A DNA stretch of 64,000 nt, taken from positions 7,379,383 to 7,443,382 of the forward strand of contig NC_089732.1 in assembly GCF_035083965.1 (NCBI RefSeq), given 5' to 3'. Source of the DNA: Branchiostoma lanceolatum. Its lineage: Eukaryota > Chordata > Leptocardii > Amphioxiformes > Branchiostomatidae. Positions 465 to 35,457 of the stretch are shown piece after piece (the first letter of the stretch is position 1; every line of letters begins with the position of its first letter). The translations under genes were made by a program, and so were the position numbers. The notes beneath the pieces were generated by a model. The model worked only from the letters and a program-made list of their open reading frames with translations, made no database searches and was not told the DNA's origin.

Positions 465-3400
465 TTGATTTACCCAGAGACCAACACCACGTACACAGAG
501 TCCATGTTGACAGTGAAGGCCACGTCGCCGTCAAACTACACCTGCGAGGCGCGGAACCAACACTCCGGCGGGGTCACCGTGCTCCGCAGGACTGGCAGAG
601 TCGTCATCACAGACAAGAGGTAACGTCTTCGAACATAATTCCATGGTACACCAGGGTACTTAACTCTGCCACCCTGAAAAGATACATCCAAACAGATCGC
701 TAAACCCAATGCCCCCCAGTTTAATGTACTCCAGCCTGTATATCTAAACTGTGCATACCAGGGAGGGTGCTGCACTATATAGCTAGAGATGTCTCAAACC
801 CACTGTTTTTCAAAGTGGCGGATTTGTGTAACCCGGCGGATTAATGTTAATGGAGGCCACAGCTAGCCTATATTTGTTCTTCTCTTTATTATTTTTTAGA
901 TGATGATTGATCTATTAAAACATTTTAATTGGAAGAGAAATCAAAAGAAATGCAAGAAATCTGACTGTTTCTCAGCAAGTAGTCTTGTCTATGTATTCTC
1001 CCATTTCTTGTTTCAGAACTTATGTTTATTTCTTATAAATGTGACAGTAGCCTTCAAAAATGTTTGCCAGTTCCAGGAATATCTAATCTTTTCACATAGC
1101 TGAGTGAAAATATGGCACTTTTTTTAAGGTCCCCAAGATATGAGGAAAGTCCCTTTGAGCACTGTATGTGCTTAGTTGTTGATTAACAGTCAGCAATTAC
1201 ACGACGTGTATTTCCAATTTGAGAAGAAGATATTGCCTTAAAAGAAAAAAATATATAATACCCTTAAGAATACATGTAGGAGCTCTAATTGAAGAATGAT
1301 TGTCTTCTTATTGATGTTTTCATTACACCTGCAAGAGCATTAATTAAATAACGAATACTGTAATTCACTTTTTCTTCACGGTAGCAAAACGTCACGGTGT
1401 AAGGAAAATTGACATTTTCACTGAACTGTAACTTAACGATGGTGCCAAGTGATTGGAATCATGAATAATCAAACAGGTTTTTCACAGTGATGATAAGTAA
1501 ATTCATGCATGGTACAGAGGTGACTGTGAAAACAGTGAACATAAAGTTACAGTGAAAGAAACAAGAATTACAGTATTGTGTAAGAGAATGAAATGACACT
1601 GAAAGTAAGCCAATCTGACATCCTGTGTACTTGATATGCAAATTGTTCTCTGAACCTGATAATGCAGATCAGATATGATCGATCGCAGCAGTTAGGCTAA
1701 ATCAATTCATTTCCTGTTATTACTGTATTATCATATCTTGATATTTTGATATAGATACCATCGTAGCAAAAACAGGATCAGGTGATTGTCAGTGATAACA
1801 GCAGGAGAGGGAGGGAAGTTTAAAAACATTTTAAGACTGGAAACATTCATTCATACATGAATGTACACATCTGCCCTGAAATGATATTCATCTTCATCTA
1901 CATCTACACATTAGGCCAATGTTGATTTGATTGTATGGATGACATCTGCGCACGCATCAATTTTCGTTCGATTCCAAAAATTAAAGGTTTTCCACCATAC
2001 TGTAAATCGTAGAGAGCATCTGCAAAATGATCAAATCCATGCCGTAAATTGCAAGAAATATTGGAAAAAGATACTGATGTCGTAGATCGCCAAAATCAAT
2101 TCCAAAGTTAAAGAAGAGGATATGAAGAAATGAAAATGAAGAATCTATCATTCGCTATACCGTAATCTTTGTATTTAGTCATCTGTTCAACCTTCCTGAC
2201 CACGTAGAGTTCATAATGAAGGCAACTTTATTTTTTGCTTAGAATTAACTTTTTTTTATTTGCATGCTTGCATCAGTTTAAGGATTCCCAGAGGATGTCA
2301 TCCATATCATCAAATCAACATGGCCTTACTAGACAAAACCCCGGATGGGGCATCCATAATGTACAGGGGCAAAATTAGAGGCCTTACCCTTGTGTGGCTG
2401 TGGTTATGTTTATCATTTCTGTTTCCCATTCATCCCAGCAAGTACCAGAGTCCCGCGGGCTACTGTGCACCTTACTCCGGCAGGATGTGCCGTAAACACG
2501 TGGGCAGTCGGATGGTCTGGTACAACAGCTCGCTGGAGAATCCCGAGCAGCAGAACGAGGCCATCGTGCGGGCGCTGGAGATCGAGCTGCTCAGCACAGT
2601 CAGCGGCATGTGCCGTCCTGTGGCGGAGGCGCTGCTGTGTCATTACGCCTTCCCGTCCTGCGACACGGACACCGGCGAGCCACGCCCTGCACCGCTATGC
2701 AGGTGTGTAATGTTTTTTTAAATTGAGAACACAACATTCATATCTGAGACACTACCGTTGTTGCCTACAATGATGTTGTGATATTACAATATATGACCTT
2801 AGCGATAAAAGTATGACCAATATTTAAAACAAGCGAATCTTAAATATAGGAATGTTTAAAATCAGTGTAATAGATAAATATATGGACGAGCGGGTGTGTA
2901 GGAACATGTTGACATTGTCGCACTGTTATGGGCCATTTGCAGCACCTGTTTGGATAATGGAAAATCCTGTCACATTCAGCTTTTTTTTCACTTAAATATG
3001 TTCTCTTCGGTTTGAGTTGACAGTTGCATATTGTTTGAAGTACTGAATGTAAGTTGGGAATTATGTCTTTTGACTTGCAGTAATTGTTTCCTTGTAACAT
3101 TTTATACTGTTTTAGGAGAACAAGATTTTCTGTGGTTGTTCAGTTTTCAAACTGATGCTCATGGATGATTAATTGATTGATTCAATTGTGCAATCTGTAA
3201 GGATGGACCAGGCGGTGAAGGTGCAGTATATGCTGCACTGTGAAATACACAAACATACAAGCACAAAGTCATTGAAAATAAATATGTGCATATCTCATAG
3301 TATATAATTTTTCTTTTCACAGGGAGCAGTGCCTAGCTGTGCGAAACATTTTATGTTTCCAGGAGTGGGCCCTTCTGAACGAGAAGAAACGTTCGGGGAT

Positions 3401-6400
3401 CTACCTACGTTCCCGCGGACACTTTCGCCTCCCGGTCTGCGAGGAACTTCCCAGCTTCATCAACGGCACCAGGTCCTGCTCCAACGCTTCCGTGTTTGGT
3501 GAGTACGCTGAGGAGTTACATCATGCTTAAACTTTTCTATAGTAATAATTTCTTACCTTCCTCCATTTAGTTCTTTTGAAGAGCAAGTAAATGACTATTA
3601 GTAAGTACTTTATTACTTGAAATGACTTACTTTACTTTTTTTTAATAGTGAGTGTGAAATATTGAAGAGTTATATTGGTCAACAGAAACAATTTTTCAAA
3701 TCATCTACTGTATTTTTGTCACCAACTATGTATTTCAAATCATGTGACAAGTATAGTTTGCTCAATTTTCTTTTTTTTGTCAGACTTCAACCATTGAATA
3801 TGCAGAAAGATCAATGACTTTAATTCACTTTGAAAAACTGAAATTTTATGATGTGATGAAATGATGTCATAATTTGACTGTACTACATGTACATGTACAT
3901 ATCTCTAACCCTGTCTGATCTGATCTATTTTCCATGTTACCATGACGACTGCCCCCAACAGAGATGAAGTCAGAGATGGTGACAGGTAAGTGTGATCATA
4001 AAACTACAACGTCACTTTGCTCTTGCAGCTTGTTCCTATCATCCACCCTTGATTTTCACATTATGTAGATGGAAATGTTGCAGGGTGTTTTTTTGTTGAA
4101 ACGTGGACAAAAATCTTTTTAATGTAATGCAACAATGTTCACCAAGCCCTATTGCGTATTGAAAAAGAAGGAAATCATGTAGTCCAGGTCATAGAAGCAA
4201 TAGAGACTTTCACATGAGTAATAACAGTTCCAGGTTTTCTAACAATTATTGAAATAAGCTGAATGGTACAAATATCAAACCTTTTTTAGGGTTTCCACTG
4301 GTAGGTTGATAATCTAGCCACGATAAAGGAGGTTCTGTCAAATCTAAAACGAAATCTAAATTTAAGTGTCAAATCAGTTCTCTAAGCTCAATGTAATAAA
4401 ATGCATTAAAACTTTATTGTGGTGTTGGCATGCACAGATGTGCACACAAAATGTCACCAATCATATTTAAAGGGTCCAACAGAAAATCCCAGCAACCGAA
4501 CAAGCTGGACTTACGAGTGTCTCTTTCCCATTTCTATTGCTCGTTTGTTTTGTATAAGAGGCACAGAGAGGATGTCCTCTTTATTTGACCTCTCGTGCGA
4601 CCTTTAAACCTTGTCTTTGATTTGTTGTTGCAATCTCAGCTGTCCCCTTGTCATCGACCATCACCCCACATTCCAAAGACCTTGCATTTAAGAAACAAAG
4701 AAATGCAGCAGCATAGACCTTATCAATAATGACAGTTGACAACTGGTGTCACCTTGAATTTAAAGTTTGGTCCTTGTCCCACCCCTGCTGTTGTTGCTCC
4801 AAGTGTGGCCTGCATGTAGCCCCACCCCCTACCGGGCGTTGATGGTCTTAGGTTCTATTTCAGTTTTCAGAGCAAACATGGCCGACTTTGATACCTCAGG
4901 AAGGAAAACATGCTATTGTATGCCAGCTATGCCGCCAGCAGGCGGTGGATGTGCCTCGGTTATGACAGTTGGGGCCCCCTGCAGTGGTTGTCCGCAAGGA
5001 GCCAGCGAAAATTTATAGGGAAAATCTCTTGTTGTGATACATCTACCGTGGTAGTTCGTTTACAAGGTCGGGCAGATAACAGCAGGGTTCCATCCTGTAG
5101 AACACATAATATCGGCAGCGCCCGTGTCTCTTGCTGCCATGGAGCCCGCCGCTTAACCTCCGAATCATCAACCTCAGAAAAAATGCGGATGAATAACTGG
5201 GAGGAATACCATGTGGGTACTCAGCATTGCTGGGAGCTATTATTGGAGCCGAAAGTGTTTTGCCAGGTCTAGGAAGTGACAGGCAGCTCTCGCCACAGTC
5301 TGTCACCCCGCCGTAATCGTGGACCACGGAGAAGGATCGACGTATTAATTTGGCATAGTCATCTGTCGGAGTGGCGACAAGCGTAAAGAATGTTGTCGGT
5401 CATTGTGCTTCTAAACCTATTTTTGGTTGAGAACTGGACAAATGTTCGACTTATTGTGTGACAGGTGCTCCAGTGTCCTACAGAATAAAAAGGAACTCAA
5501 CTTTTGAATTTTTTTGCAACAGACTCAAGTTGACTATCATTGTATTAGTGACTTAATCCTACTCTAGCCTAATGACATTCCATCTTAGAAATTTTCTGCT
5601 AAGAGGTCTTAAGCAGAAGAACCTCATCAAAACAACAAAAGAAAACTTAGCAAGGAACACTTAGAGTAGTACCGTAGATGCTAATTGTATTTAGAATCTG
5701 CCATTTAGAAACACCCACAAAAGTTCTCACAAACTCTCTATGCCATCAGTTGTATTGAACTTGTATCTTCCTGTTGTTCCCTCCAGTTGACTGTTACCGC
5801 GGGAAGGGCCGATATTACCAGGGTACGCTAAACGTGACGGAGTCGGGATACGCCTGTCAGCCCTGGGCAGCTCAGGTCAGTACAGCCAGGACTTAGCTTT
5901 GTTCAATTTTGCTGTACAGGTTAACAATTTTTTAGAGTTGACGGCCTCTGGCTGCGTTCAGGCCATCCCAAGGAAGCTGAGCCTGTCATTTGACGGGAGG
6001 ACGCCCCTCTGGCGGAAACACTGCTTATAGACGATGGAAAAATATAAGCACTTTCGATAGAAGGTCAACCACATAGACTCATGGACCCCAAACTTCCAAA
6101 TTGTGCTGTATTCTTCAGACGTTTCTGTTTTACAGACATCACCTGGTTTAACATGGTCCTGTGTTTGGATTTCTTTGTCAGTTGACTTGTATTGGACATG
6201 TATGCTGTTTAGTATCATTTAATAATGATGACAAAATACATGACTTTTGTTCACTTGTCTCACAGGAGCCCCACCAGCACGACCGCCTACCTGAGTACTT
6301 CCCGGAGTTACAGAATGCGGAGAACAACTGTCGTAACCCCGGGGGCGAGGAGCCCCAGCCCTGGTGCTACACCACCAACCTACGCCCACGCTGGGAGAAA

Positions 6401-9400
6401 TGTAACATTCCCCGCTGTGAGGATGGTGAGTCATAGAACATCATGCTCTGCTTTACACAGTCACTAGCCAGCATATACTTGTGTCGTATAGGACTGTCAA
6501 GTGGATCAGTATCACATGGGAGTCACCATGTCAAACTGATGAAGTACACATAAGCAGTACAAATGATACTCTAGATGATCACTACAGTGGAAGTCAGTTG
6601 TAAATAGGTCGATGAAGGTTAGACATCTAGGTAATGAGATGCGCCAAATAGCAGTTACTCAAGCAACTGGATAAGATTTTTGAAAAGTTTCCCAAATCAT
6701 ATCCAGTTTGCTAATGATTGAGTAACTGCTATTTGGCGCACTTATTGTAAATAGACAATCTACTTTAGTTGCCTGTGATTTTCTGCTGCCAGTGGAGATG
6801 AATTAGACTCCACAGTAATGTTGAGACTTACCTTGTACCTGAACCTGGTTATTCCTGATGGACGTTAACAATGGGATACATATAGCAAAAGTCAGATATT
6901 TCTACCCTTGGAAGGAATATCATCTCTGCTGTTTTGTGTTGTTCTCTTTAGAGTAGGTGTGGATACGATCAGTTTGCCATGGTGACATTCCATGTACATC
7001 TATTCTACATGATGGGATGCTAATCCAATGGCATTGTTCCTTTTAAAGATACAAAACCATGAAGACAATATGGCAGTGGAAAGTCTCTAATGAAGTCTAA
7101 ATTATACCTAAAGACAAGGCTCTGCTCATTTGAGAAAGAAGGTAGTCTTGTTCATGAGTTGGATCTACAGAGATTTGAAGTTGGGTTTTAAAAGAATTGT
7201 CACAGAGAAGGAAAAACAGACAAGCCATTCATTAAAGAAAATTGCTTTTGAAACAGTTACTGTTTCTGTCAAGAATTTGTTGATATCAGCTACAATGAAA
7301 CTGAAATTTTTAAGGGTTTTAAATGTTCAAGATTAAGGACCAAAACGATTTCTAAAGTGATTTATGAAGAAACCAAAAAATTGATGAGAAAAACACAGAG
7401 CGATCCTAACATTTGTGTCTCCTGCTACATGTCATTGAGCAGTTTTGTTAAGTTTGCTCTTGTTCATCATGCATTCTGTGTCTCCAACTCATTCTGTTTC
7501 TCACGTTTTCTTGTTTTTTTGCTAAGTCTTATATTTTCAGTTCTGCGTCCATGTGTGTTGATAATCTATCCAGCCATTTTGTGTTGTCACTTCTTAGGCT
7601 TTGAAGGTTTAGTAGAATGATGTGTCAGGCTCCCTTCCTGTGTCTGTCTTCCCCTCTTCTTTCTCCTCTCTGTCTATTCCTCCTTCTCTCCATCAAAGAC
7701 ACAAGTACCGATCAAATTGACACCGACAAAAACGAGGAAACCTGGACGCTTGGGAGGGATGACTTTCCCTACTGGTCGGATGGTAAGGAGGAGTACATGT
7801 GGTGGTACGGTGGCACGCCGCCTACGCAGGAGGACTTGCGCGGCACCCCGCCTACGCAGAAAAACTGGCACGTTACCGCCTTGCCCCATTTCCCGCCCGA
7901 AATAGCCCAAATGGAGGACGGGACAGAAGAAACCTTTATCGACCTCGACATGCAAGTTGTCGCCAAACAGAAAGAGGAAGATCTTGAAGCAGAGGTGGAG
8001 AGTGAAATTGAGTGGGCCATAGAGAAGGAAATAGAACAGGACGTTACGACTACCGTGGCGGGTACCACGCCGAGCGGCGATTGGTACGACAGAACAACAG
8101 CAACAACCAATCAGGTCAGCGTCAGTCCTGTCCCCTCCCAGCCGAGCAACGAGGCCTTGCAGGACGAGATCATGACGCTCTGGGACGTCCTTCAGACTCT
8201 CTCGCGCAACATGAACAAGCTGGCGGAGGAAGAAGAAGAAACAGACCGCGAGCTGAGGAGGCTGGACAAAACCGTAAAGGCCCTCGAAAAGGAGATGACA
8301 TCAAGGTACAATATGCTGACCAAGGAACTGGAGTCGGCCAAGGAGACCATCGCGCAACTGGAAGAAGAGTTAGAGGAGCCTTATGATCATGAGCAAACGG
8401 GAGGGGCTGATGAACAAGGGGGAGGAACTAACAAGCAAAGAGCAGTAACTGACGGGCAAGGGGAAGGGACTGATGCACCTGTAACTTATGAGGCACGCCG
8501 GGGCGGGACTGGGAGAGGCTCACTTCCTACAGTTGGGCAGGGCATGATGATAGTTTTGCTAGTCTGTTGCTGGATGATAAGTGAACTGATATGATAGAGG
8601 TTTGTTTTGAACTTTGATGGACAAGAGTAGATACTCTAAGCTAGCCCCACTAGCAATGTTCTAACCTAAAGTCTTATTTGGTGTGTTTTTTTACACTTGG
8701 CGAGTGTTGCATTTTGCTGTTTTCAAGATTACATGCAAAACCAGAAAAAATGGTGTTGTGCGATATTTTCGTGATCAAAGCTCTTACAGCTTATTTCTGA
8801 AATGATTTGATGTGATCACCTTTATGATTTTATCAATTATTTGATACCAATGAGGAACACATTTGAAATAGTCAGCACTTTTCATTACATCAAATTTCAT
8901 TGTGGTCAAAGACTTTGTCCATGTCAATTTCAGAATTGGAAGATCTTTGTGATTATAAGTTCTGAGAGGCTACTGTTATCATGATGTTAGTATCTTACAA
9001 TAATATGCAGCAGTTTGAATAGAAATTTTTATCTATGCAATAGATTCTACAGGGTTGATAAAATCAAACAATGTGACTCACCGTTTTTATTTGAGGAAAT
9101 ATCTACTGACAAATCACATTTGGATTGTAAAAGATGTATGATTAGTAATGGGTGGCATGTGCCTTTTACAGACATGTAGACTTAATTTGGTTTATGTTAA
9201 CCCTTACCTTATGAATAACGTCAGAGTCCTTTTTTTGTCTGAAAAGCTGCCTTAGCTAAGCCACAGTAACTGTACCCCATTGTAGGCACGCAATTTGGCC
9301 TTGTTTCTGGTCGGACTTCTTCAGAAAAATGTGAAGAATTTTCATCCGGAATGTTTATTATTGACCTTGGCGGTTTATTTGGGATTTGATATGACGTTCT

Positions 9401-12400
9401 ACATGGCAAGGCGTGCCTCTCCATGGCAACGGGCGTAAATGCAAGACACGTGCATATTTCATGTTGTATAGAATTCGCTGATGTCAGTTGTGTGGCTCTA
9501 TTTTTGCATGAGATAGTTTATTGTTTCTAGAAGAATGCATCAGTCTGGGTGACAGAGGGCAAGTAGTAGTATATCTCTAAGCATCTGCTTTGTCTAACTA
9601 CTGGTGGGTTGATGATAGGTGAAAACTGCATGAATCAGCAGTCCAGCAGTATAAAAGACAGGGGCTCCAAACCACAATTGTCTAGCTTTAATCTACTTGA
9701 CAGGGAATCTTACAAGCATGCAAGTCAGGAAAAATAACTTACTGATCGATGATATGTTTGTACGGTTCACATCGGATTCCGCAATATAGCACAGTGTACA
9801 AAATGTAGTTAAATCGTCATTACAAACATGAAGTTATGGGATTCTGCATTGGCCCAAATCAATTCACTGCAAATTCACCTTACAGCTGAGCACTATTATC
9901 CTACTGTAGTGCTTGGGAGGGTAAAGCACTCATAACTGTGACCTGAATAAGATTATTCAGTATTGTAAATGGTATACACTGAGTCTCAACAAATGTTCAG
10001 TTCACATCTATGATAGTTACTTTGTAGTTTGTAAACATAATCTATAGGTAATTTTTAGCTGCTTTACGATTTTGTTATCAGAATTATTGATTTCTGTGCA
10101 ATAGAAGAGAAACTGCCGTATATGAAAATGATTCACACTAAAAAGTTTGAAAGTTTGATAATTTTATTTTTGACTGATGTGGTCTTTTAAGGGAGGTATT
10201 GTCCTTTACACAAGCCTTATAGATGTGATAAGAATGTAGTTTTGGAAAAAATGTATGGAATAAACATATTTTCTTCCACTGTGGCTAAGGTTTGAGTGCT
10301 AGATATTATAGGATGAATGAAACTAATTGAACATTTTTAGCAGTGTTTAATTTTTGGGGTCTTTTAAAAAACACAAAAGGCTTTACATGGTAAAGTTAAG
10401 TTCCACCAATCATGCTATGTTTCATAATATGTAATGGTAAGCCAAAAGTACTGTCTCGTTTTGGAATTAAGCTTGTAATGTTTCTTTTTATTTCAGTTTT
10501 TCTGCATTTTTCTAACTGTACTTTTTGCACTAATTATGATAATCTACATGTCCTTCTAGCTTATAAGCTTTATTTTAGCATTATATAATATAACTGGTGA
10601 TCAAGTTATACATCATTAATTTTTGAGTATCTTTTTCGTGATTCAAACATGTCAACCAGTCACTGTTGACCTTGTCCCTTTCCCCCATTTTTTTGGCAAC
10701 CAATCAGCTCAGTTGCCTTCATATTTTGTGCCAGAAAGCCATCATTTCCCATCAACCAGTCATGACATTTCCTCTCAATTTTGGACCTCAATGACGAAGA
10801 CATGAACCAAACCGGGTATACTTGTGTTTTCTCTCCACCTCTCCTTTCCTTCTATTCCTTGTTCTCCCCTTCTATTCCTCCTTCCTCCCTCTCTCTCACT
10901 CCATCCCTCCCAGGCCCCCCTTCTCCTGTGCCTCCTTCTGCAACAGATAGCTCCAACTCTTCTGTCCCCTTCCATGGCGTCACCACAGCCCCTCCTCAGG
11001 CAAACGACGGCCGATCGCCCGCGGAGGCTGTCGCAGGGAGCACCCAGAGGACCCCTGTGGTACCTGAGGGTACCGCTAACCCCAAATCAGGTATAAAATC
11101 AACAAACAAACAAACAATGGGCATGCTGTGTGAGCCAAAGAGCTAGGTTCTGTCTCAGTGTTTCATTGAAAGCAGTGTGTTCTTGGATAGTGTTAGATAT
11201 GAAATTGCAGTGCACTTGGGGTCCATGTAACATTACTCCAAACCATACAGAAGAGATAAAAACTTCTTTGCCTAGATTGTCTGTGATCTCCTACAAAACT
11301 ACCTGTACATATCAAGACTATGACGTCAGTGACAATTGATCTGGAAAAACGATTGGTAAAGACCCCAAAGTTTTTTTGTTTTTTTTGAAGTTGAATGACT
11401 CTCACGTGTTTAACTTGTTGAGCATCATGAGTTGAGTCGATCAAAATATCCTGACAACAACCCTGCACAGAATGATCACTCCCTCTCTATTCCTGACAGC
11501 TACTACCACTACTTTTTCTTCTTAACCTGTATCTACAGAAGACTGGGTCTGTGTGCTTACAGTGCTGTACACTGTAAAATGCCTTTACACAACGAAATCT
11601 ATTCTGATTTAAACATGGTCTATACGTGTTTGTACACTAACTCTGATCTGTTTTCTTAATGCTGTCGTCCTATTCTCATTGTACTCCTGCAACGTTTACA
11701 CAAGAAAATGACTGACTTTTGAGACGTTAATTTTTCTCTCCAGACAACTTCACGATTCCGCTTGACTCGGTGGCTACGGAAGAACTGCAGGTAGCGGAGA
11801 AGAACATCGTGTTGTCGTCCACCACGCTGATTATCGTGATCTCGGCGGTGTCCGGCTGCGTGGTGCTGGTTCTGGTGGTCTGTATCCTCATGATGTGTAA
11901 CAAACTCCTCAAGCAGTACAGCAGGAAGTAAGTCATTATTTCTACATCAATAAAGCTGTAATGTAACATTTAGTACTAACAGTTATGGAGTGAAGTGTGC
12001 TTTCAAACAAATGTTTTTGGATTTTGAATCATTATGAAAGTGAACTGTGTTGTCAATTTTGATTGGATACAGTTATATTTCAAATGTAGATGCTTGCATA
12101 ATGAACCAATGAATGAATGGTTGATTATGATAAGTGAATGAGTTGATTTTTTTCAGTTTGGTAATTGCTAAAAGTAGTTACTGTACAGTTGTAGGTATTG
12201 AAAACTGCATTGAAGTAAAAGTTTTTGTTTTGACTAGAACATTCATTGTTTGTACATTGTCACAATGTACACAGGCAATAGTCAATGTAAAGTCTTGTTA
12301 AATCATTTTACAGTTACAGTTCAACTTCAAATGTACATGTACCTGTACACATCACTGTTTACATGTACATATATATAGGTGGCTGTTGCTGTGTTTTGCA

Positions 12401-15400
12401 GAAGAGACAAAAGTGACAAAATGTTTGAAAATGCTTGGACTATTAGTATAGTAATAGTACTTTGGCTTTCGAGTCGCAGTTCTGCATTTCTCATAGACAT
12501 TTATAATTATAAGTCCTTTGTGAATAGCTAGTTTGTAGAAGACAAGCACTCCTGGTATGTGACAATGTCTGTAAAAGTATCAACCTTAATGTCACTAAAC
12601 AGTCTGAAAGCTGGTATATTTTGCAGCAAAAATTGTTTTTGCAAATGAATGAAGAAGTCCATTCTGAAGTAAAGAAGTGGTGCAGCAAGTAAAATGTAAA
12701 ATGGCATGTGCCGTTTGGACTGGGCATGTGACACAAAATGGTTGAGATATCGAAGTTTCCTTTTACCCAAAAAAGCTCTTCTTCTTACATGCCAGCACTT
12801 CAGTAATCCTTCTCCTACATGTACCTTCCCCCTGAGCTTTATACATGTAGGTAGGAATGTAGCAGAAGGATTGACACATTGGGAGGTAGGAAGAAGAACT
12901 TGGTTTGGGTGCAAGAAAAACTCCAATATCTTGTAATCTACCAGTCTGATGAACGTATTCAGCAAAGTGGTTGAGAGCCCAGAGAAAACAGAGAAGAATC
13001 TAACTGTGTTTCTGTTAAGAATCCAGAGAAATGGAGAAGAATCTAACTGTGTTTCTGTACTTGCAGCGCCTCCGCTGCTGCGCAAGCTGTCAGCTACGAC
13101 CTTCCTCCTCCTCGTGCTTCCAGCTTCCGCTCCTGTCCCTCCCCGCTTTCCTCTGTGTATTGTAGCTCTCTGCGTCCGCGCTCCCTGCCCTTCTATCCCC
13201 ACTACAGGTACAGTCACTCCGCTGGGCATGGGCAAACCGTCCGTCCTGCTGTATCCATGTGCTGGGCACAGACATACTATCAACTAGAGGCATCCAGTTC
13301 TGAACTGCCGCTGTTGAAGTACAGTATTGAGAAATATTTATGTGTGGAAAGGTCTCATCAATGATCATGATGATCTACCAAGTAATTGTTTGAACAATTT
13401 AGAAACTGCCACGAAAAGATCATGTGAAAGAACTATGACAATGGTGCAGTTACAATGTAGTGTACATATAACAGTGGAAGGCGGTTCAGCACTCTGGATG
13501 TCTTTAGTTAAGAACTTACAATCTCTTGACTGTCTCTGTGGCCATATGGCTCAACCTGTTCTGTCTTGGCTCCAGTCCTGCTTAGTTAATGTGAAGCCTT
13601 TAAATGATTAACTTCACAGAGTTCTACTTGCTTTGACCATGGTCAGTGTGCAGGCTGTTCCTATTGTTTGCCTTGTGAAGAAACATAAAACATTGTGAAC
13701 TTGCTAGAAAAAACAACCTTTTCATAATGATACCTCGTTGAAAATTTGATTCCTGTTTGGAATTGCCTTTCTGATGCAGGCATTCTTTCCTTCTTTTAAA
13801 ATGTTGGGGTAATATTACATTTACCTACGTCTACTCGCTTTCAAATAAAAAGAAGTTTCAATGATTGTGTTCTTTATCAAAAGTTACCAACCTTCTGAAA
13901 GATCTAGAAACCGCTTGTGGCTAATGTCTACAGATTTGAATAATCTCCTTATGAGAGAGTTTAGCCCTAGTCATTTATCCTAAAGGCAAAATTGTAAGTT
14001 TTTTGCCGGACTCAAATAATGTAACTGTCAGAAACTAAGAAGCAGAGGCAGTTTATCTCTAGCCTTCAGCACAGCGGGTTCACCAGGACTGATGGGACTG
14101 ATACTAAGATTATCATTTCATTGTCATGACAAAGTTCATTTCATGGTAATTAACACTGCTGCTGTTTTTAATGCTGTACATGTCTACTCCACCGATCCTA
14201 GTGATGTCATCACACAATATTAACCTCTGTTACATGTAATTATTCACTGCATAACATGTACTGTACCTTGGTTCCTTCTTAACATTCAATCATTTAACCA
14301 TTTTTAAAAACCTTTTTGCTCCCAACCAGGCAACTTTCCATCTGTTCCCAAATGTCCTTGTTTTCAATGTCTTCATGATGGACAATTTAGAACTGTAGCT
14401 ATCTAATTTGAACTATTAAGTTTATTTCGTAGCTTGATGACCCATCCTTCAGTCACTCATTTCTTCCATCATTCTTGTCACTTTTGTCTCCTCTACCACT
14501 CGTGTTCATTCCTTGCATGTTTCTTAGAGACATGTCTTGTAGCTTAGACGACTTGAGGAAAGTCTGAAATAATCTCCACAATGTGCAATTAGCTTTGTTA
14601 TAGGAGATGATCATGTAGATACATCCATGCATTGACTCTGCACGGTAGATTCTTTCACCATCACCCCTCTCTATCTGGGGTTGAGTTTGATAAGTGCATA
14701 TATCAATCAGGGTTCATACAAAAGGACGCAAAATTTGAATGCAAAAATGTTGCAACACTTTATGGAAAAAAGTTGGACCATTATCCTATGTAGTTTTACA
14801 ACATAATGTTGTATAGACACATGAACTATTTTGCTAATGTTACTACAGTAACTGCATTTTAAGTCTTGAAAAATCACAAGGTACTTTTGGAAGTTTAATA
14901 ATATTACACAGAAAGTCATTCCACAGATGTCGGTTTAGAGTCTGAATCCATGTTGTATGAACCCTGCTGTTGACTCCACAGAAGTTAACCATGTTTCCAT
15001 GTTGTTCTCTCTGTGTGCGTACCCACCAGGGAGGAAGAAGACACACCTTCCAAACTCCCGTCTGAGTAATCGCCACTCTTCTATTCCAACTGCTTTCTTC
15101 TGTGTACCACAGGGCTCAGTTTTGGTCTCAACGTGTAGGAGGGGCATGTGTTAGTCCCTTTTCAAAATCTATTCAGTTTCTGCTAGAGGCAAAGGTCATG
15201 AAAATTACCTGAAGCTCTGTGATCACTTTTGATGTGTATAACCAAGGAGGTTAACCTCCTTGGTATAACTTTGTGAAATTGCTTGTAAGCTTTGCATTCA
15301 TAATATCTTCCAAAGAATCAAAAATAGTCATTGTGAAATGTTGTTTTTTGATTGATTCTTTCCAAGCGACCTTTCTAAGCGACCTATGAACTATCAATTT

Positions 15401-18400
15401 GTAAGTCTAAATTGAGCCCTGTGTCTAATACAACATTCTTAATATCAACAACCAACAATGCATTCCTTGTTGTACAGCAATTGTGTGAAAATCTCATTTT
15501 CTCTTGTGCTTCTCTCTTCAAACACAATTCTTCATTAACAACAAACAAAACCTCTGTTGTGGTAGATGTATCACATAAAAAACCTAGATAGTGTCTGTGT
15601 TTTCAAAACCTCAGATACGTTCTAATTTCTTATTCTGTACTGATGTGTACAGTTTACCCTTGTTTTTTTCTTACTGTTGTGGTGGACTTTGTTAACACAG
15701 AACTGTGTAAGGAGACTGACTGAACAACAGAGGTTTTATCTTGTCATTTCTATCTTTCTTCCTTCTTCACTCCTTCTGTCCGTCCGCCCTGTAACTGTCT
15801 CTCACTTCCACCATGACAGGAAGGCGGAAAAGGCAGCGTCTGAAACGCCTGTTCCCAAGTTTGCCACCAGTAACGGAGGGTACAGTACCGTCCTCTTCCC
15901 ACTTCTGCTCTTTTGTTCCTCACTTCTTCATCTGTAAAATTTGAATATTCCACCTTTGCACTTCAGAATTGGGTAAAGGGTTTCATTTGTCAGCTATCAC
16001 AGTTTTCTTTAAATTTTTAGATGCTTCACAAATTTAAGACAGTTAAATCACTGAATTGCTCTATGAAAGGTAAACTGCTATTGGTGCCTTAAAGTTAAGA
16101 TAAAATTACTATTAGCTGCTGCAGTAAGGCAATGAGAGACATTAAACACTTGAATGATCTTTTATGGTGTTGTTTCATTTTAAATGAGACGTCATGTTCA
16201 TCTTCATGGCTTTTTGTTGCTCCTGTAGGGGTGGCCTTCCTCCATGTAACACCTTCAATTCTATACGGTCTGTTCTGAGTCTTTTCTGTGCTCCCCTTGT
16301 GGGGGATGTCTGCTGTGCTGTGTTTCACCATAATAACCACATTACTTCAAGCATGTCTTCTTCTATAAACTGTCAATCATTTCATTCAACAACTACATGT
16401 ACCATTTAGTTGTTCTTCATTTCAGTAACCCAAAAGTATCTTTGTTTGAAGTTTGCCACTGGTGTGGTTTTTGCGTTTTGGTTTTTGAGTTCAGCTTGGT
16501 TTATTGAGTTGTTTTCCGCATGTTGAATCTGGATTCCTTTGCCTGTGATTTGTCTCTTGATGGTATCCCTCCTTGGCTTTAAGTTTTTATCTTGGAGGCT
16601 GACCACCGAACTTTGGGCATCTTTTTTTAACACTTAAGGTTATATGTTACCAGCTAAGCATCTTTTGCTGAGGCTTGTGTATCTGTTAAGCAGCTTTTGT
16701 GATGATTTCTTTTATGCTTGATGTGGACTGTCATTAGAAGTACTTTAAGTTTTGTTGATGATTAAGTATTTCATGTATGCATTGATTATTTTGCTTAGAT
16801 CTAAGACATTTCTTTTGGCTGAAAACTCCTTTTGGTGAAACAAAGTGACAGCAGGGATGTTATCCGTTTTTTCATCAAAGAGAGACTCAAGTAATCTCAC
16901 AAGTAAAATCCCTGCTATCTTGAGCATTTGCTCAGTTTCATTTGGTACAAGAAATAATGGCTGTGTCATGAACAACTTGAAGTAGAATAGAAATTTAAGT
17001 TGAAGTTATTGGAAGGGACGGACCCAAAATTATACAATGTGAAAGATCAAAACCAGGCCAAAGACATACTTTTCAAGTTTTCATACTTTTCAAGTTTCCT
17101 TGTGTTTTAGAGGTGAAAAGAATTTTGTAAACAGAATGTCATCTATACATGACACAGAATCCCAGTCTCAGAGTAGAGTCAGTTCAGTCTACACTCCTGT
17201 GTATACTAAAGGCTGTGTGAATTTTCTTCCCCCAGTGGTCCGTCCCCCGCTCCCCTCCCCGATGAGCTGATGCTGGACAAGCTGCCTGCGAACCCCATGT
17301 ACCACCGGTCCGCCCCCACCCTCATGAATCCCAAACTGGAGAAACTGGAGTACCCCAGGAACGACATCGTCTTCATACGCGACCTGGGGGAGGGCGCATT
17401 CGGCAGGGTATTCCAGGTCAGTATCATAATCATACATTGTCTGTTTTATATGTAATAAACTATGTAGACAATGGTGTAGTGATCTAAATCATTAACTCTA
17501 AGGCACAGTTACAAGAGGTTAAAGTTTACTGCCTTGAATATGTCAATGAAATGGAAAAAAAAGGAAAAGTGCACAACATACATATGGTTGCAGTTTTATA
17601 AGTTTGGGAGAAAATATCACATACAGTTTCCCAATCTTCACAGTAACATTATGTGATCTTCTTGAATGTTTTGCATGAGACCTTTGGTTTAACCCTTTTA
17701 ACCCCGGCTATAATCTCTCGCAGGCCAAGTGTCTGAACAAGAACTATCATTTCTCGCAGGCCAAAGCTCCGGGAATCGTGCCCGGAGAGGACCACATCAT
17801 GGTCGCCGTGAAAATGCTGAAGGACGAGGCCAGTTTGGACATGCAGCGGGACTTTGAGCACGAGGCTCTGCTCATGTCGGAGTTTGATCACCCGAACATT
17901 GTGAAACTGCTTGGCGTGTGCGCGGTGGGCCGGCCGCTGTGCCTACTGTTCGAATACATGGGTCACGGGGACCTGAACGAGTTCCTGCGGTTGTCCAGCT
18001 CCAGCCAGTACTTGATCCGGCGGGAGGGCAGGACTACGGCCACCCTGCCAAAACTCGACAACATCGATCAGCTTCACGTCGCCAAACAGGTCGCCTCCGG
18101 GATGAAATACCTGGAGAGGAAGAACTTCGTACATCGCGACCTTGCCACACGGAACTGTCTGGTTGGGGAAGGATTAACGGTCAAAATCGCGGACTTCGGA
18201 CTCGCACGACAGATGTATTCCTCGGATTACTACAAGGCCGATGAAAACGACGCGGTGCCGATCAGATGGATGCCGCCGGAGTCGATACTGTACAACAAGT
18301 ACACGACAGAGTCGGACGTGTGGGCGTACGGCGTGGTCCTGTGGGAGGTCTACTCCTTCGCTCTACAGCCCTACTATGGCATGACACACGAGGAGGTCAT

Positions 18401-19322
18401 CAGGTAGGGTCCACAGCAACAATTTTTGTGGTTTTTGATATGGCTTTTTCCCAAAAGCTTCATTACGTACTGTAAATACAGAAATGTTCACGGTATTAAA
18501 TTTTGCAGTAAAAGAGAAAAAAAGAGTGTTTGTGGTGGGTTTGAGTTTACGTTTGAAACAGTGCTACAGTCACACAACGGAACAGCTTCTCACGGTGGTT
18601 TAAGTTCACGGTAAAGAGTTCATCGAGAAAACTGCAAACATAAAACCACTGCAAACATTTCTGCATTTACAGTATCATGACTTAAAACAGTCCATTTTGT
18701 CTCCTGTGGCCTTGCTACTTGCGTGGCTGTCTCCTGTCATACTTATTATGCTACACTGTATAGTTGTACCCCCTTGAACTTTGTGTATTACACTACAATA
18801 TAATGAATGATTTCACCCTGTTGAACTTACTACACCACAATGCATAGTTTTACCCCCTTGAACTTTGTGTATAACACCACATTGTACTAGCCCACAGCTG
18901 CCCACCCCTGTGTCGGGGAACCTCACAGCAGTATAATCAAATACTGGATACTAGAACTGCTACTACTATCACAATACATGGTCGTACCCCATTGAACTTA
19001 TTACACCATATGGAATGGTTGGTTGCACCCTCTTGAACTTATTACACTGCAATACAAGCTTGTACCTTGTTGAGCTTATTACAGTCATTACCCTTCTAAC
19101 TTTGGGCCTTATTTTACTCCCTCCTGTCACCACAGATACGTCCGTGACGGGAACGTGCTGTCACAGCCAGACACCTGTCCGCACGAGGTCTACCAGCTCA
19201 TGAGGAGATGCTGGTCTAAGGTTCCGTCCAACCGTCCGTCCTTCGCTACCATCTACAAGGCGCTGTGCACGATCTTCGACGAATACGTCAACAGAGCTAC
19301 CATGGTGACCAACGTTACGTGA
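465..19322 (+). CDS. MUSK: MuSK-type receptor tyrosine kinase, 5' end outside window
   Basis: Muscle-specific-kinase-like receptor, a plasma-membrane tyrosine kinase that organises the neuromuscular synapse in vertebrates. Exons read: 465-619, 2439-2702, 3323-3498, 3962-3985, 5787-5875, 6266-6425, 10914-11090, 11744-11927, 13067-13207, 15820-15879, 17236-17416, 17760-18403, 19136-19322. All junction phases agree and give 813 residues plus stop. Domains in local residues: end of an Ig fold (YTCEARNQ) 1-52; Frizzled-type cysteine-rich domain about 53-205; kringle 207-289; Pro/Ser/Thr linker 290-348; transmembrane helix 376-399; juxtamembrane NPMYHR with Tyr499; kinase about 515-805 with [21 protein letters not shown] and activation loop YSSDYYK. 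Closeness to MuSK rather than ROR rests on the [16 protein letters not shown] and NPMY stretches. Kinases of the ROR family share the Ig-Fz-kringle layout and are the main alternative. The signal peptide and earlier Ig domains must lie upstream. Confidence 0.93.
620..2438 (+). other. MuSK intron between Ig and Frizzled exons
   Basis: AT-rich intron with no supported gene. Its only clear structure is the inverted repeat element at about 1909-2330, next to the acceptor of the Frizzled-domain exon. Confidence 0.7.
1909..2330. repeat. Dispersed inverted-repeat element, copy 1
   Basis: Starts near TTGATTTGATTGTATGGATG and ends with its inverted relative CATCCATATCATCAAATCAA, so the ends are diverged terminal inverted repeats. 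The right 230 bases match, in opposite orientation, the stretch 63082-63305 at the other end of the window. This marks it as a dispersed family, not MuSK coding sequence, even though an open frame runs from it into the Frizzled exon. No target duplication was resolved. Confidence 0.6.
3986..5786 (+). other. MuSK intron between CRD and kringle exons
   Basis: Intron without a recognised gene. A more GC-rich stretch at about 4860-5340 carries open frames on both strands, but they show no domain, no consistent splice context and no codon pattern like the neighbouring exons. Confidence 0.6.
6640..6740. repeat. Short inverted-repeat element (MITE-like), family A
   Basis: About 100 bases with arms starting TGCGCCAAATAGCAGTTACT and ending with the reverse complement AGTAACTGCTATTTGGCGCA. 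The internal motif CTCAAGCAACTGGATAAGAT is shared with 24751-25008 and, more weakly, 25456-25580. Flanking DNA (GATGAAGGTTAGAC) is also shared, so the full unit is probably longer. Lies in a MuSK intron. Confidence 0.75.
7699..8594 (+). CDS. Alternative last exon of MuSK, or a nested single-exon membrane protein gene
   Basis: A long open frame in the intron after the kringle exon. A polypyrimidine tract ends in AG at 7698, and the frame continues the phase-1 kringle exon exactly (g + AC gives Asp). Read this way it adds 298 residues: an acidic Trp/Tyr-rich start, two GTPPTQ repeats, a glutamate-rich segment, a long Glu/Lys/Leu heptad-like helix (about 8158-8379, likely coiled coil), a Gly/Thr/Gln low-complexity stretch and a hydrophobic tail [16 protein letters not shown] (8544-8591) directly before TGA. 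The tail could be a short membrane anchor or a GPI-attachment signal. A phase-1 donor at 7783 (TG|GTAAGG) would instead make 7699-7782 an 84-base cassette exon that splices in frame to 10914. A third reading starts at the ATG at 7617, where the pyrimidine tract itself encodes a signal-peptide-like leader. No known domain is recognised. Confidence 0.6.
8595..10913 (+). other. MuSK intron and possible 3' UTR of the alternative last exon
   Basis: AT-rich, no gene seen. AATAAA at 10259-10264 is a candidate polyadenylation signal for a transcript ending through 7699-8594, implying a long 3' UTR. The end of the stretch is a strong pyrimidine tract feeding the acceptor at 10913. Confidence 0.5.
12991..13066 (+). 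repeat. Short tandem duplication before a MuSK acceptor
   Basis: The 25-base string beginning GAGAAGAATCTAAC occurs at 12991 and again at 13034, a period of 43 bases. The second copy runs into the acceptor of the exon at 13067. It looks like a recent local duplication in the intron and leaves the coding sequence unchanged. Confidence 0.7.
13208..15819 (+). other. MuSK intron, juxtamembrane region
   Basis: Intron of 2.6 kb with no supported gene. It holds the 24-base perfect palindrome at 15241-15264. Open frames here are short and lack any recognisable domain. Confidence 0.6.
15241..15264. repeat. Perfect palindrome built on CCAAGGAGGTTAA
   Basis: ACCAAGGAGGTT followed directly by AACCTCCTTGGT, with no loop. 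A relative with a short AT spacer lies at 51217-51247, inside another gene. The shared GGAGGTTAA / TTAACCTCC halves suggest a tiny dispersed hairpin element. Confidence 0.75.
15880..17235 (+). other. MuSK intron before the kinase-proximal exon
   Basis: No gene supported. If the donor at 15880 (GG|GTACAG) is not used, the frame reads on for 19 codons to a stop at 15935-15937 with a hydrophobic end. That is probably intron read-through, not a designed exon. The rest is AT-rich and featureless apart from weak open frames. Confidence 0.5.
18470..18672. repeat. TA-flanked inverted-repeat element (MITE-like), family B, copy 1
   Basis: Ends are CTGTAAATACAGAAATGTT and its inverse AACATTTCTGCATTTACAG, directly flanked by TA on both sides, as expected for Tc1/mariner-type target duplication. 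The interior contains GGTGGGTTTGAGTTTACGTT and CACGGTGG. A close copy is at 41111-41311, and more distant members at 33714-33872, 44277-44466 and about 59675-59730. Lies in the last MuSK intron. Confidence 0.85.
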
Positions 19323-30600: not shown

Positions 30601-33600
30601 GTGGGGAAAATAGGAAATGCAGCAAACAATTAAAATGCATGCAACGTGTAAAACTCATAACGAGCAGAATGTTCACATACAAAGACCACTACTTCATAGT
30701 TTTTGCACAAGGAGAAAGCTTCTTCTGAGATACGTTTTAAAGTCTGATTGTACATTTTTCATTTTGAATATATACGAAGGTTTGAATATATGCCGTTGTT
30801 GCATTAAGGAGAAAGGCTAGCAACCCCTCCCTGTAAAAATATGTCCTGCTACTGAAACAGCAAGGAAACTTGCTGCCGTATGTGCCACTAGGCACTACAA
30901 GGGTCTGAACATACGAAACAAATTATCCAGTGATATCCCAACCATATTTATGATTATAGTTATAGCAAAAGACCCACCATGTTTAGGGGCACATTTGAAG
31001 TAGTAGATCCCACCAATACTGCCATCGTTTTTCCCCTCAGGCTCGTCCAGCTCAATCCCGGCCCACACGCCTGACGCAAACTCTGTTGTACCGCAGAACC
31101 GCAGCGTGCCCATCTGCAAAAATGTGCAAAATTCTTCATTATGACCATCTTTGTGGTAGTAAAGTGGTCTTTCCGTTGACAATCATTTCTAAACAATGTC
31201 ATACACATTTTCCCGACTGCTCATTTCCATGTTGCGCATCTCGCAAAGTTTGTGCACAATTTAGTTGACCTTTTATATGAACATACTGTACATACATTCA
31301 AGTGGACTCAAATTCTATTATCTTTTATGCTAAATTGAATCAAAAGCTAAACCCATTTCAATTTTCAATAGATATAGAATGCATTTAACACATCGACTTA
31401 AATTTTCTCCATGATATTACATGATCTTTGATTATGAAATATTATGCTGCGGTTGTACTTGCCTTTACTCCTCCGATGATGACCCGTTCCCCCAGTTTCA
31501 GCCCCCGTGATGACAGCAACACCTTCCCTGATACAGTCTCGTAGCTCGGCATATCGTACTGCGTAGTGTTTTTCTGCGATGACAATGGCTCTGCGTCCTT
31601 CAGCAAGATCCGCATCTTTGTGGCAATAATGGCAGTTTCTGATGTGGCATCGAGGCCTGATGTGTCAGGGATGCATTCTAAAGGCGTGTGTCCAGCGCTG
31701 TCTTTTATCGTCGGATCGGCGCCGTGTTGGAGGAGGCAGCGGGCAGCCTCGAAGCAGAGGTTTGTGGTAGCGATGTGCAGGGGTGTGCCGTTGTCATACT
31801 CTTGACATAAGTTATCTACATCTGGAGCAAAGAGACAGAGAAGACAGCTACAATAAGCAGTGAACAAAACATCAGAATCCTCCTACTAAAGTTCTAGTCA
31901 CTAAATATTGTTGAAATCCACTGAGAAAATCTTTATTACACGAAACAGGGGGTGCCCTATCATAAGATGTTTTAGTATTTCTTAAGTGTATGACAGCTGT
32001 GTAACTGCTTCGTAAGGCCGTAGATTTTGCAGTATGAGATTCCGCTAAGCAGTGCCCTCCATTTGACACCAGTATTATCATTGTTAAAGTACTATTTTTG
32101 AAAAAAACAATGAGAAAACTAGATGAATATGCACAAGTAGATGTTTTTATGCAAATGAGAGCTGTGTGCATGGACTTAGGTTTATTTACCTTTCTAATCA
32201 GCATAGTCAGTGGTAACAAACACAGCGTGTTACTAATAAGATCAGAAAAAATGTCTCAACTTAGGGTACGCCTCAACTTAGGGCACTTCGTTACTTCAAA
32301 CAGTGAGTGTCAGGATCACCTAACTTGTATTTGCTCAACCATAACAAAATTTTACTGTTCTTTGGGGTAATCATAATGTAAACAGCATCTCCTACCCTTA
32401 TTGCAGTGAATGTTATTTGTTTGCAAACGTTTAAGAATATAATCCACCGGTTGTACACTGTCTAAACAGTCCGTCATAATGTTCCATACACATGTAGGTC
32501 ACAGTTGTTTGATTGGTGCAAACATTCGGTACAAAAGTTCGTAACGGAAGAGTGCTGGGTTTTCAAACAAGCAACACGACAGCGACATGTGATTGCGACA
32601 AAGCCTAGCAACAGAGAAAAAATCAAACCCTGGCAGAGAATGGCACATTGGGGGTCAGCGTGGTGTAAAGAAGTAGTTTGCTTTGTAGTCATGTACAGAT
32701 AACACATGCAGCATGGAATGGCCAGGAGTAAATAAAGCAGTTGTTGACACCTGTTATGTTCACACAGACTCACACAATTATCCCAGCAGTGTTTAAATTT
32801 TCCCAAAACAAGAACCGGTTAATATAAAAATACAACCCTGAAAAAAAATAAAAATACAACCCTAAAAACGGCTCCATAGCAAAAATCAAATGTTCTTCCA
32901 AAAAAGCTATGAATAAAATTTGTACAATTCTGATTAATGATAAACTTGAGGTGCTTCAAAAATGCAATGAAACATGCACACTGTGACACACACAACTTGT
33001 TATAACTGGTAGGACAGATTAAACAAGTAAATGTTACCGAAGCTCCCAAAGTAAAAGCGTAGAATCAGGTGGACGGGGATGCTACTCCAGACCATCCCCA
33101 TACTGATACACCTGACACAGGTGTTACCAACAGGTGTCAATAACAGGGGAGACAAACAATCTGCATAATTATGGACCAATCATCCAGGTTTGTACTCACC
33201 TGTTACTTTTCTACAAACCAATACCTGAGTTTTCTGAAGTATACTAGGCATTCCCAGAAACACTACTCACTTCATAGATCCAATTTAACTCACAATTTTG
33301 CGCAGCTACTAATGATTGTGATTACAATAATAATGATAATAGTACTCAATTTCACACATTGTAAATATAAGGTAGTACTAATACTACTACTATAACTTTA
33401 CAGTGATTATGTTTGCAATTCTCTCACCAAAAAGCTGGTACATGCACAACAAGATCTTCCATTCATGAAACACAAGCCAAGATGCAAAATGGATGTCATA
33501 TCTAATACATCTTATAAAGCATTTTAGAACCCCTTACCTCTCCCACCAGATGCCTTTAACAGCATGCTGATAAGTACAGCCACGTCGAAGTACGCTGCAT

Positions 33601-34803
33601 AGTGGAGGGCGGCCATGTTGGTCCATCTGGAACGGATTCTGACCTCTGCGCCTTTGGAGATCAGAAGCTCTGCCAGTCTTGACGCTTGAAACGCAGACAG
33701 ATGTTGTTAAAACTACAGTGAAATGCATTTAAGTTCATGGAGGTTTAATGTTTGCAGTTTTTTGCGGTAACCTCTTCACCGCAAACTTACAACACTACAA
33801 CACTGCTTGTTCTGTTCTGCACCACGAACACTCCATTTCCTCCCTACTGAACTTAAATGCATTTTACTGTATCTTGGACTTATGATTTTCACTTTACCCT
33901 ACTAGTACTAGTACAGTATGTGCTTTACTATGCATTTTGAAGCAGATGCTACTTTGATTTTTTTTTCATTTCAAATGTTTAGAAACAGAGACAGAAGAAA
34001 ATAGAGTTTTCCCTTAAAAGTCACCTGCTTCAACGCTGCCGATCCCAGTAGCACCTGCCTTGCACGCATACTGCAGTAACGTCATGTCAGTCAACCCATC
34101 ACGATCGTTCACATGGGCTCCCCTTCTCAGGACCTGAAAAAAAAAATGTTAATCTACCACAGTGGCTACTAGGTTATCGTTACAGTTCTTTTGGATAGAA
34201 GGGGTACGAAAAGTTACCAAGAAAGTTGGCTACAAGAATAAACAACAAGGCTGATCAAAATGAAAACAGGGGGCTGGGAGGAAAACTTGCATCTGACTAT
34301 ATTGAAATTCACTTTCTGAAACTAACAACTAGTAAAGGTGTACAAACTATTCCTTCAGAACTTGTTTTTCTGCTCATCATTACTACTAGCGTGTCCAAAT
34401 CTGAAAACCAGCATTAATTTCAATAAATTAAATAGACTGTTGATTGATTAGTCAGTGTTATGAGTCTCTGTAACTTTCTCTCTATACTTCATGCAAATCT
34501 ACGAACCTCTTCTCCGAGTACGTCTATCCTCCGCTGCACCTGCGGCACCCACTGTCTGATGATGGCGAAGATCTGACTGACAGACAGGTTCATGTCCTGC
34601 AGCAGCAGCTGGCACCCTGGGCAGTCCGGGTCGAAAAACGTCAGCTCCAAGTCGCGACATCTTTCGCACAGGGGAGCGTCGGTGGCGCGGTGGATCATGG
34701 GCCGCTCACGTGGAGGGACAGAGAAGTTGGTGGGGGACAGCTCGCCATTTGCGTGTCCGTTCTGCTGCGTCTCGGACTCTGCCTTGTGGTCACCCAGCGC
34801 CAT
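27603..34803 (-). CDS. CLIP4: CAP-Gly domain-containing linker protein 4 (three CAP-Gly domains, ankyrin repeats)
   Basis: Microtubule-binding linker of the CLIP3/CLIP4 (CLIPR-59) family. Exons in transcript order: 34803-34507, 34133-34025, 33684-33538, 31821-31463, 31113-30978, 30598-30455, 30082-29957, 29706-29583, 29242-29187, 29069-28988, 28397-28219, 27802-27603. Together they give 652 residues with every phase closing. The N-terminal segment ends in the family motif [11 protein letters not shown]. Ankyrin repeats span about residues 100-270 ([17 protein letters not shown]). CAP-Gly domains lie at about 292-358, 413-480 and 545-620, and each keeps GKNDGS, the tubulin/EB tail-binding loop. 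Serine-rich linkers join them. Three CAP-Gly domains and the ending [15 protein letters not shown] point to CLIP4, not the two-CAP-Gly CLIP3. Intron 4 appears to use a GC donor (see findings). The start is the only ATG that fits the first exon, which has a spliced 5' leader. Confidence 0.95.
28452..28558. repeat. Short inverted-repeat element in a CLIP4 intron
   Basis: AGCCTGGTATCCAAACCT at the left and AGGTTTAGATACCAAGCT at the right, with CAAGTCTCCTCCCCTCAAAT pairing with ATTTGGGGAGAGGAGACT across a TACAT loop. A hairpin of about 107 bases, imperfect, without coding potential. Confidence 0.75.
31822..33537 (-). other. CLIP4 intron between ankyrin exons
   Basis: Intron of 1.7 kb. At about 32160-32250 it holds a sequence around GGTTTATTTACCTTTCTAATC that matches, inverted, about 63400-63500. 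The rest shows no gene. Confidence 0.55.
32160..32250 (+). repeat. Dispersed repeat shared with 63400-63500
   Basis: The block from GCATGGACTTAGGTTTATTT through ATAAGATCAGAAAAAATG is matched on the opposite strand near 63400-63500. The reading frame through the block ([11 protein letters not shown]) is also similar in both copies, hinting at decay from a coding transposon, but no domain can be named. Confidence 0.55.
33714..33872. repeat. Inverted-repeat element related to family B
   Basis: Starts ACAGTGAAATGCATTTAAGT and ends ACTTAAATGCATTTTACTGT. The interior has TTTGCGGTAACCTCTTCACC followed by GCAAACTTAC, as in the family B copies. Lies in a CLIP4 intron right after an exon acceptor. Confidence 0.7.
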
Positions 34804-35457
34804 CTTACTTCACTCAGGCACTGTAATAGTAGACACATGTATTATCTTAAGTTAAGGTTAAATATCATCCCAGTTATATAACGTAATGTTGCTGCAGTAA
34901 TAAATCAAATACTTGACAAGGACTCACTGTTACCTTTGAAATGACATTCTAAAGAAATGAGCTCTATCAAAATTAAACCATTACAGCATTAGAACTCAAA
35001 GCAACTGTTCTTGTTGTCTGCAAACATCCCAGATATATATGTATCCAATTAAAGATGGCCCCTTCCAGTCCAGATGACCTACATGTTTTATGTAAATTGA
35101 TAAAACATTCAAAACCCATTTAAAAAATGGCTTTGATGCAATATTGTAAGTCAGAAGCTGCACAGACAATAATGTGTGCTATGAAAACAAATATGAGTAC
35201 TAGTTATAGAAGCAGGCTGCTGACAGCAGGCAAGTGTTGTAAGTTACACTTACAGCGAGCAGGTGTTATGTGATACCTGTTATTATAGACAAATTATTAG
35301 AAGGTCATGTGACTAAGATAATGTCCATCAACTGCCTGTAATTTTGTAATCAATTCCAGAACAGCGCTCTTCACACGATGACTAAATATCTAATGTTGAC
35401 ATTTGAACATTCTAATCTTAATCTTAAAAGAAGTCGCTTTGCACCATGGCACAGAAT

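Follow-up and report, generated by a model that had tools for sequence, protein, structure and literature searches.

A candidate composite exon in the kringle-to-linker intron of a lancelet MuSK gene, predicted to provide either a short stalk insertion or a kinase-less receptor end

A long open reading frame lies in an intron of a lancelet MuSK gene, directly after the exons for the kringle domain: is it part of the receptor, a gene of its own nested within the receptor gene, or an accident of base composition? The window, i.e., the whole stretch of DNA that was analysed, comprises 64,000 nucleotides of Branchiostoma lanceolatum (contig NC_089732.1, positions 7,379,383 to 7,443,382). The MuSK receptor gene occupies 465 to 19322 of its forward strand, as recognised by profile matches, PDB matches and the spliced chain. 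For the kinase region (17679-18404) the top four PDB sequences all belong to MuSK (E 1.4e-98 to 7.9e-98), with Trk and ROR behind, starting at 1.5e-70. Pfam detects a Frizzled domain (Fz, E 4.2e-10, in frame 2200-2718) and, in exon 6266-6425, a kringle domain (E 1e-11); both precede the transmembrane exon, and a single open frame of 746 residues runs across all joined exons (758 with the other kinase-exon acceptor). The window contains one Ig-like exon, recognised by eye and putatively the last of the immunoglobulin domains (465-619), and the 5′ exons of the gene lie beyond the window edge. Downstream follow Frizzled-domain exons 1 and 2 (2439-2702 and 3323-3498), an exon of only 24 bases (3962-3985), kringle exons 1 and 2 (5787-5875 and 6266-6425), a Ser/Thr/Pro-rich linker exon that starts in phase 1 and comes next in the full-length receptor (10914-11090), the transmembrane exon (11744-11927), an exon with the NPMY motif and the start of the kinase domain (17236-17416), the kinase exon (17760-18403) and the final kinase exon with the stop codon (19136-19322), all of them on the forward strand and all joined in the in-frame chain. 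The NPMY motif presumably has here its usual role in MuSK.

In the available parts of two papers, the kringle is described as absent from mammalian MuSK and present in MuSK of fish, amphibians and birds (PMC6966886, PMC5855712). The start of the lancelet kinase exon has tandem in-frame acceptors 36 bases apart (17724-17760, forward strand); the upstream one adds 12 residues, before AKAPG and directly after the glycine-rich loop, and with either of them the full-length frame stays open. Two candidate in-phase juxtamembrane cassette exons, 13067-13207 (141 bases) and 15820-15879 (60 bases), sit on the forward strand, downstream of the transmembrane exon and before the NPMY exon, and the intron ahead of kringle exon 1 holds a 126-codon forward frame (4892-5272). 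Other genes are found on the minus strand, at 30895-34809, 43806-49147 and 58411-61180. They include exons for ankyrin and CAP-Gly (CLIP-like), an acidic frame rich in K, E and D, which we take to be NASP-like, and a CAF1 ribonuclease whose CCCH zinc finger scores under its cut-off; the last of these is presumably TOE1-like.

The intron in question (6426-10913) separates kringle exon 2 from the linker exon. On its forward strand, the frame 7605-8594 extends over 329 codons from stop to stop and is the longest among the 87 window frames listed at 90 codons or more. It ends with the stop codon 8592-8594, and comprises 325 codons when read from the ATG at 7617 or 297 full codons after a candidate splice joint at 7699. 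Over 7699-8591 this frame contains no stop; the other forward frames contain 19 and 15, and the reverse frames 4, 7 and 11. None of 20,000 dinucleotide-matched Markov controls stays open over the same interval, be it in the given frame or in any forward frame, and the part past an internal donor taken by itself (7782-8591, 270 codons) is likewise open in 0/20,000 matched sequences. When intron-like sequence was simulated at the full intron length, a 297-codon run occurred in none of 2,000 cases, the longest being 241. The G+C content of 200-base windows is 0.50-0.585 within 7700-8599 vs. 0.295-0.41 within 6600-7699, and drops again to 0.305-0.365 within 8600-9199, past the stop.

Codon usage was scored with a table trained on 1,064 codons taken from 14 exon stretches elsewhere in the window. 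The frame reaches 0.32 bits/codon, and the training exons, left out singly, span 0.00 to 0.85; 214 of 3,000 stop-free dinucleotide-matched controls equal its score. Among its segments, the coiled-coil region (8181-8390) scores best, with 77/3,000 controls as high, and the last 201 bases (8391-8591) score worst, with 2,714/3,000 controls as high. The frame is very probably coding, a conclusion that its openness and the pattern of its protein support well and its codon bias weakly. An origin by chance, within a G+C-rich patch of the intron, is hardly credible. Weak codon bias would suit it, and 12 of 5,000 matched 990-base stretches do hold a 297-codon run in some one of the six frames, but the forward-frame controls gave no case in 20,000, and the heptad and tail statistics of the product as well as the coincidence of splice sites and phase, set out below, argue against it. 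An antisense frame of 208 codons (7674-8300) was also considered and is not favoured: the reverse frames score -0.26 to 0.00 vs. 0.32 bits/codon for the sense strand, a comparison in which stops weigh heavily. Inside the sense frame, 7812-7871 is a 30-base tandem duplication that encodes GGTPPTQ... twice, with 80% identity and the frame kept.

Translated from the joint, the coding segment (7699-8594, forward strand) would give a 297-residue product that consists, in this order, of an acidic part, a Thr/Ser/Pro-rich part, a coiled coil, a Gly-rich part and a hydrophobic end followed by the stop. The best coiled-coil segment (8157-8303, residues 153-201) has a heptad contrast of 0.71 over 49 residues; none of 1,000 residue shuffles reaches this value (shuffle maximum 0.59), and it ranks first among the 299 window frames of at least 60 codons (runner-up 0.50). 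The C-terminal tail (8541-8591, residues 281-297) has a Kyte-Doolittle mean of 2.50 over 14 residues. A comparable stretch appears at the end of 1 in 20,000 residue shuffles, and anywhere in 20 of 20,000. Its C-terminal hydropathy is the highest of the 299 frames, by a narrow margin over 2.41, which belongs to MuSK's own transmembrane exon, and 2.33. The earlier note had proposed a frame of about 300 codons in the intron after the kringle exon, with a coiled-coil segment and a stop right after a hydrophobic tail, and all of this is borne out.

Over 19 residues the mean hydropathy of the tail is just 1.91 vs. 3.15 for the MuSK transmembrane segment, and its hydrophobic core comprises about 12 residues. 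Because of this low 19-residue mean, a putative GPI signal, judged from general knowledge of such signals, fits the tail better than a membrane span does. The stretch preceding the tail matches the GPI attachment-site pattern by eye. The tail end, SELI, is imperfect for a GPI signal and places a Glu three residues before the C-terminus; a Glu so near the end is unusual in such signals. The 297 residues contain no cysteine upstream of the tail and no N-glycosylation motif. The latter feature could also be read in favour of a cytosolic tail-anchored protein, started at an internal ATG and nested in the intron, and tail-anchored proteins likewise combine a coiled coil with a hydrophobic C-terminus. 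Such a protein is nevertheless very unlikely, since the core is short for a membrane span, a promoter of its own would be required and the splice sites described below would be left unaccounted for.

Comparisons with known families place the product in none of those covered. No Pfam family reaches its cut-off among 25 of the 29 weak families listed at E up to 1; the best, ATG17_like, has E 5.4e-4 and 20 bits vs. a cut-off of 43. Weak, scattered matches of this kind are typical for coiled coils. PDB yielded 7 sequences with E no higher than 10, the best at 0.092, and no relative among them, viral contigs gave a single pattern match for which a relationship was not confirmed, and Rfam has no match within the window.

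Splice sites and phase bear on a link to the receptor. Kringle exon 2 ends at 6425 in phase 1, and the joint at 7699 carries on in phase 1. Ahead of the joint lies a polypyrimidine tract with its AG (7629-7698, forward strand): 69 bases are free of AG, pyrimidines make up 90% of 7629-7691, and the AG is at 7697-7698. Among the gene's 1,137 AGs, just two have at least 87% pyrimidine over the 68 preceding bases, namely the candidate acceptor and the acceptor of the linker exon. In sequence the candidate site is weak: 7698/7699 ends in AAAG and ranks 92 of 1,141, with 13 of the 14 other listed acceptors outscoring it and that of the linker exon ranking second, all on weight tables of approximate vertebrate frequencies, so that the ranks of acceptors and donors alike are rough. 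A yUnAy branch-point match is present at the linker acceptor and missing within 80 bases of the candidate one. A duplication relating the two tracts (7629-7698 and 10825-10913) was considered and dropped, as their alignment score of 23 was matched by 69 of 300 shuffles; the repeat family reported for both is low complexity. The same intron carries, at 6640-6740 on the forward strand, an inverted repeat with 26-base arms that are 96% complementary, and this resembles a small mobile element.

Within the frame, the donor 7782/7783 (ATG/gtaagg) ranks 5th of the 1,269 GT sites in the gene. The four sites ranked above it belong, from the first on, to the 24-base exon, to kringle exon 2, to kinase exon 1 and to Frizzled exon 1, and the two next below it (ranks 6 and 7) to the NPMY exon and to kringle exon 1; the first other site without an assigned exon is at rank 8. 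The ranking is informative, though not a classifier, since three listed donors rank low (linker 93, the optional juxtamembrane exons 52 and 154). If used, donor 7783 would bound an exon of 84 bases (7699-7782, forward strand) that encodes 28 residues, and a receptor with this exon spliced in keeps an open frame through the transmembrane exon. Because the exon is 84 bases long and has phase 1 at both ends, the reading frame is kept in silico in all three forms, skipped, cassette and terminal. Judged on sequence, the donor is the best evidence tying the segment to MuSK. Three further sites were tried and rejected: as links from the frame to the linker exon, donor 8114 (score 4.1) does not keep the phase and donor 9603 is located past the stop, and acceptor 8142, inside the frame (score 7.3), has no partner in phase with 6425.

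A terminal form would also need a polyadenylation signal. From the stop to the linker exon, the sole AATAAA or ATTAAA is an AATAAA at 10259-10264 (forward strand), 1.7 kb past the stop, and its presence is at chance level (1 seen vs. 1.43 expected). The earlier note had correctly located a candidate polypyrimidine-AG acceptor in exact phase with the kringle exon, a donor at 7783 that could bound an 84-base exon and a candidate poly(A) signal near 10264, although the last of these is no more frequent than chance predicts.

If donor and acceptor are so unequal, the MuSK exon might consist of the 84-base cassette (7699-7782) alone, with 7783-8594 read through intron retention and either functionless or of other origin. 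The far stronger donor, the poor codon usage of the last 201 bases and the chance-level polyadenylation signal are all compatible with this. It is, however, distinctly unlikely: the 270-codon frame past the donor, open in none of the matched sequences, contains both the coiled coil and the hydrophobic C-terminus, and an exon of 84 bases only is hard to square with such a frame.

The segment may instead be independent of MuSK. An intronless nested gene could start at the ATG 7617-7619 (forward strand), in which case the pyrimidine tract would encode a signal peptide, and the product, a coiled-coil protein with no relation to the receptor, would be secreted or GPI-anchored. Consistent with such a gene, the open frame begins as early as 7605, acceptor 7699 is weak, and the in-frame leader from ATG 7617 is signal-peptide-like, with a hydrophobic mean of 2.45 that exceeds the 1.28 of the equivalent leader from ATG 10802 through the linker tract. 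Pyrimidine tracts encode Leu, Ser, Pro and Phe anyway, and as the second frame of the tract reaches 2.65 vs. 2.45, the hydrophobicity of the leader is partly a property of the tract; this control fails to dismiss the leader, because the linker-tract leader in frame reaches just 1.28. The codon usage of the leader is poor (-0.10 bits/codon, 590/3,000 controls as high), CTG accounts for 2 of its 9 Leu codons vs. 50 of 100 Leu codons in the training set, and its start lacks a basic residue. Above all, a nested gene leaves the donor at 7783 and the phase match unaccounted for, and a strong in-phase donor inside the frame is hard to square with an unrelated gene. A nested gene therefore appears rather improbable, and weaker as a reading than an exon of MuSK.

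The reading favoured here takes 7699-8594 to be a composite alternative exon of MuSK, used either as a cassette or as a last exon; we assign it a probability of roughly 0.6. A composite exon would account for both the strong donor and the long frame that follows it. Counted against it are the AAAG acceptor, the missing branch-point match, the chance-level AATAAA, the weak codon usage and the Glu near the end of the tail.

The computed features, i.e., the open frame, the ranks and phases of the splice sites, the heptad pattern and the hydrophobic C-terminus, would fit together as follows. Skipping of the segment would give ordinary MuSK. If the segment is included and donor 7783 is used, the receptor would gain 28 acidic residues between the kringle and the transmembrane exon. 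If it is included and the donor is bypassed, the transcript would end in the intron, with the AATAAA at 10259 as the sole classical candidate for its polyadenylation, and would encode the ectodomain plus the 297-residue tail, without the transmembrane exon or the kinase. Inclusion would thereby be set by the weak acceptor, and the choice between stalk insertion and kinase-less last exon by use or bypass of the donor. The terminal form would probably be minor, because splicing should seldom bypass a donor of such strength. In this form, the coiled coil would oligomerise the ectodomain and a GPI anchor would tether it to the outer membrane leaflet, or the protein would be secreted if the signal fails. 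By analogy with truncated receptors, we infer that the kinase-less form would compete for MuSK ligands or present them, with no kinase output.

A further-reaching version of the composite exon can be put forward only tentatively. One splice choice may switch lancelet MuSK between a signalling receptor and a GPI-tethered decoy or co-receptor, multimerised by its coiled coil, for agrin/LRP4 or Wnt-type ligands, with use of the donor resulting in a longer stalk. If lancelet MuSK does have a kinase-less form, its ligand-binding part would have had a role of its own in a chordate outgroup. Such an arrangement would also show that a cassette exon and a last exon can share one place in a receptor gene, split by a single donor choice.

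Among the matches listed in the open-access literature (titles and opening abstracts; subscription papers fall mostly outside), searched for MuSK isoforms, lancelet MuSK, and receptor kinases with alternative last exons or in GPI form, no such MuSK form is described. Known systems share parts of the proposed arrangement. NCAM-120 is a GPI form that arises from an alternative last exon, and as in the candidate, this exon with its GPI signal replaces the transmembrane and cytoplasmic parts; unlike the candidate, NCAM is a cell adhesion molecule and its alternative exon is not known to encode a coiled coil.

Among receptor kinases, secreted decoys can arise through intronic polyadenylation, e.g., in intron 13 of VEGFR2, where U1 at the upstream donor restrains the process (PMC3826338, in the parts available). 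As described there, these decoys resemble the MuSK candidate in retaining the ectodomain, losing the transmembrane segment and kinase, and ending in an intronic C-terminus. Unlike them, the candidate would have an intronic tail of 297 residues that combines a coiled coil with a hydrophobic C-terminus, and its intronic piece has a candidate acceptor and donor of its own. For soluble receptor kinases in general, 60 splice variants from 21 genes have been reported (PMC2575619), and according to the accessible part of that paper they likewise stop within the ectodomain after intron fusion; MuSK and GPI each have 0 occurrences in its main text.

The truncated insulin receptor DAF-2B of C. elegans is produced when a donor is left unused, dimerises and sequesters ligand (PMC7041946, as far as the available text describes it). 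It shares with the MuSK candidate the bypass of a donor beside an alternative exon, which results in a non-signalling receptor. In contrast to the candidate, DAF-2B is described as secreted, its cDNA includes 128 bp from an intron, and it belongs to another receptor family; it was also demonstrated experimentally, whereas the MuSK form is predicted from sequence. In MuSK itself, the zebrafish unplugged/MuSK isoforms FL and SV1 control different steps, a precedent for alternative splicing of this receptor with separate developmental roles. SV1 differs in that the accessible part of the report calls it a splice variant and does not describe it as kinase-less (PMC2809748). Decoy receptor kinases are thus a kind already known, and the MuSK variant proposed here, in which one donor would separate a stalk insertion from a kinase-less last exon, appears to be new.
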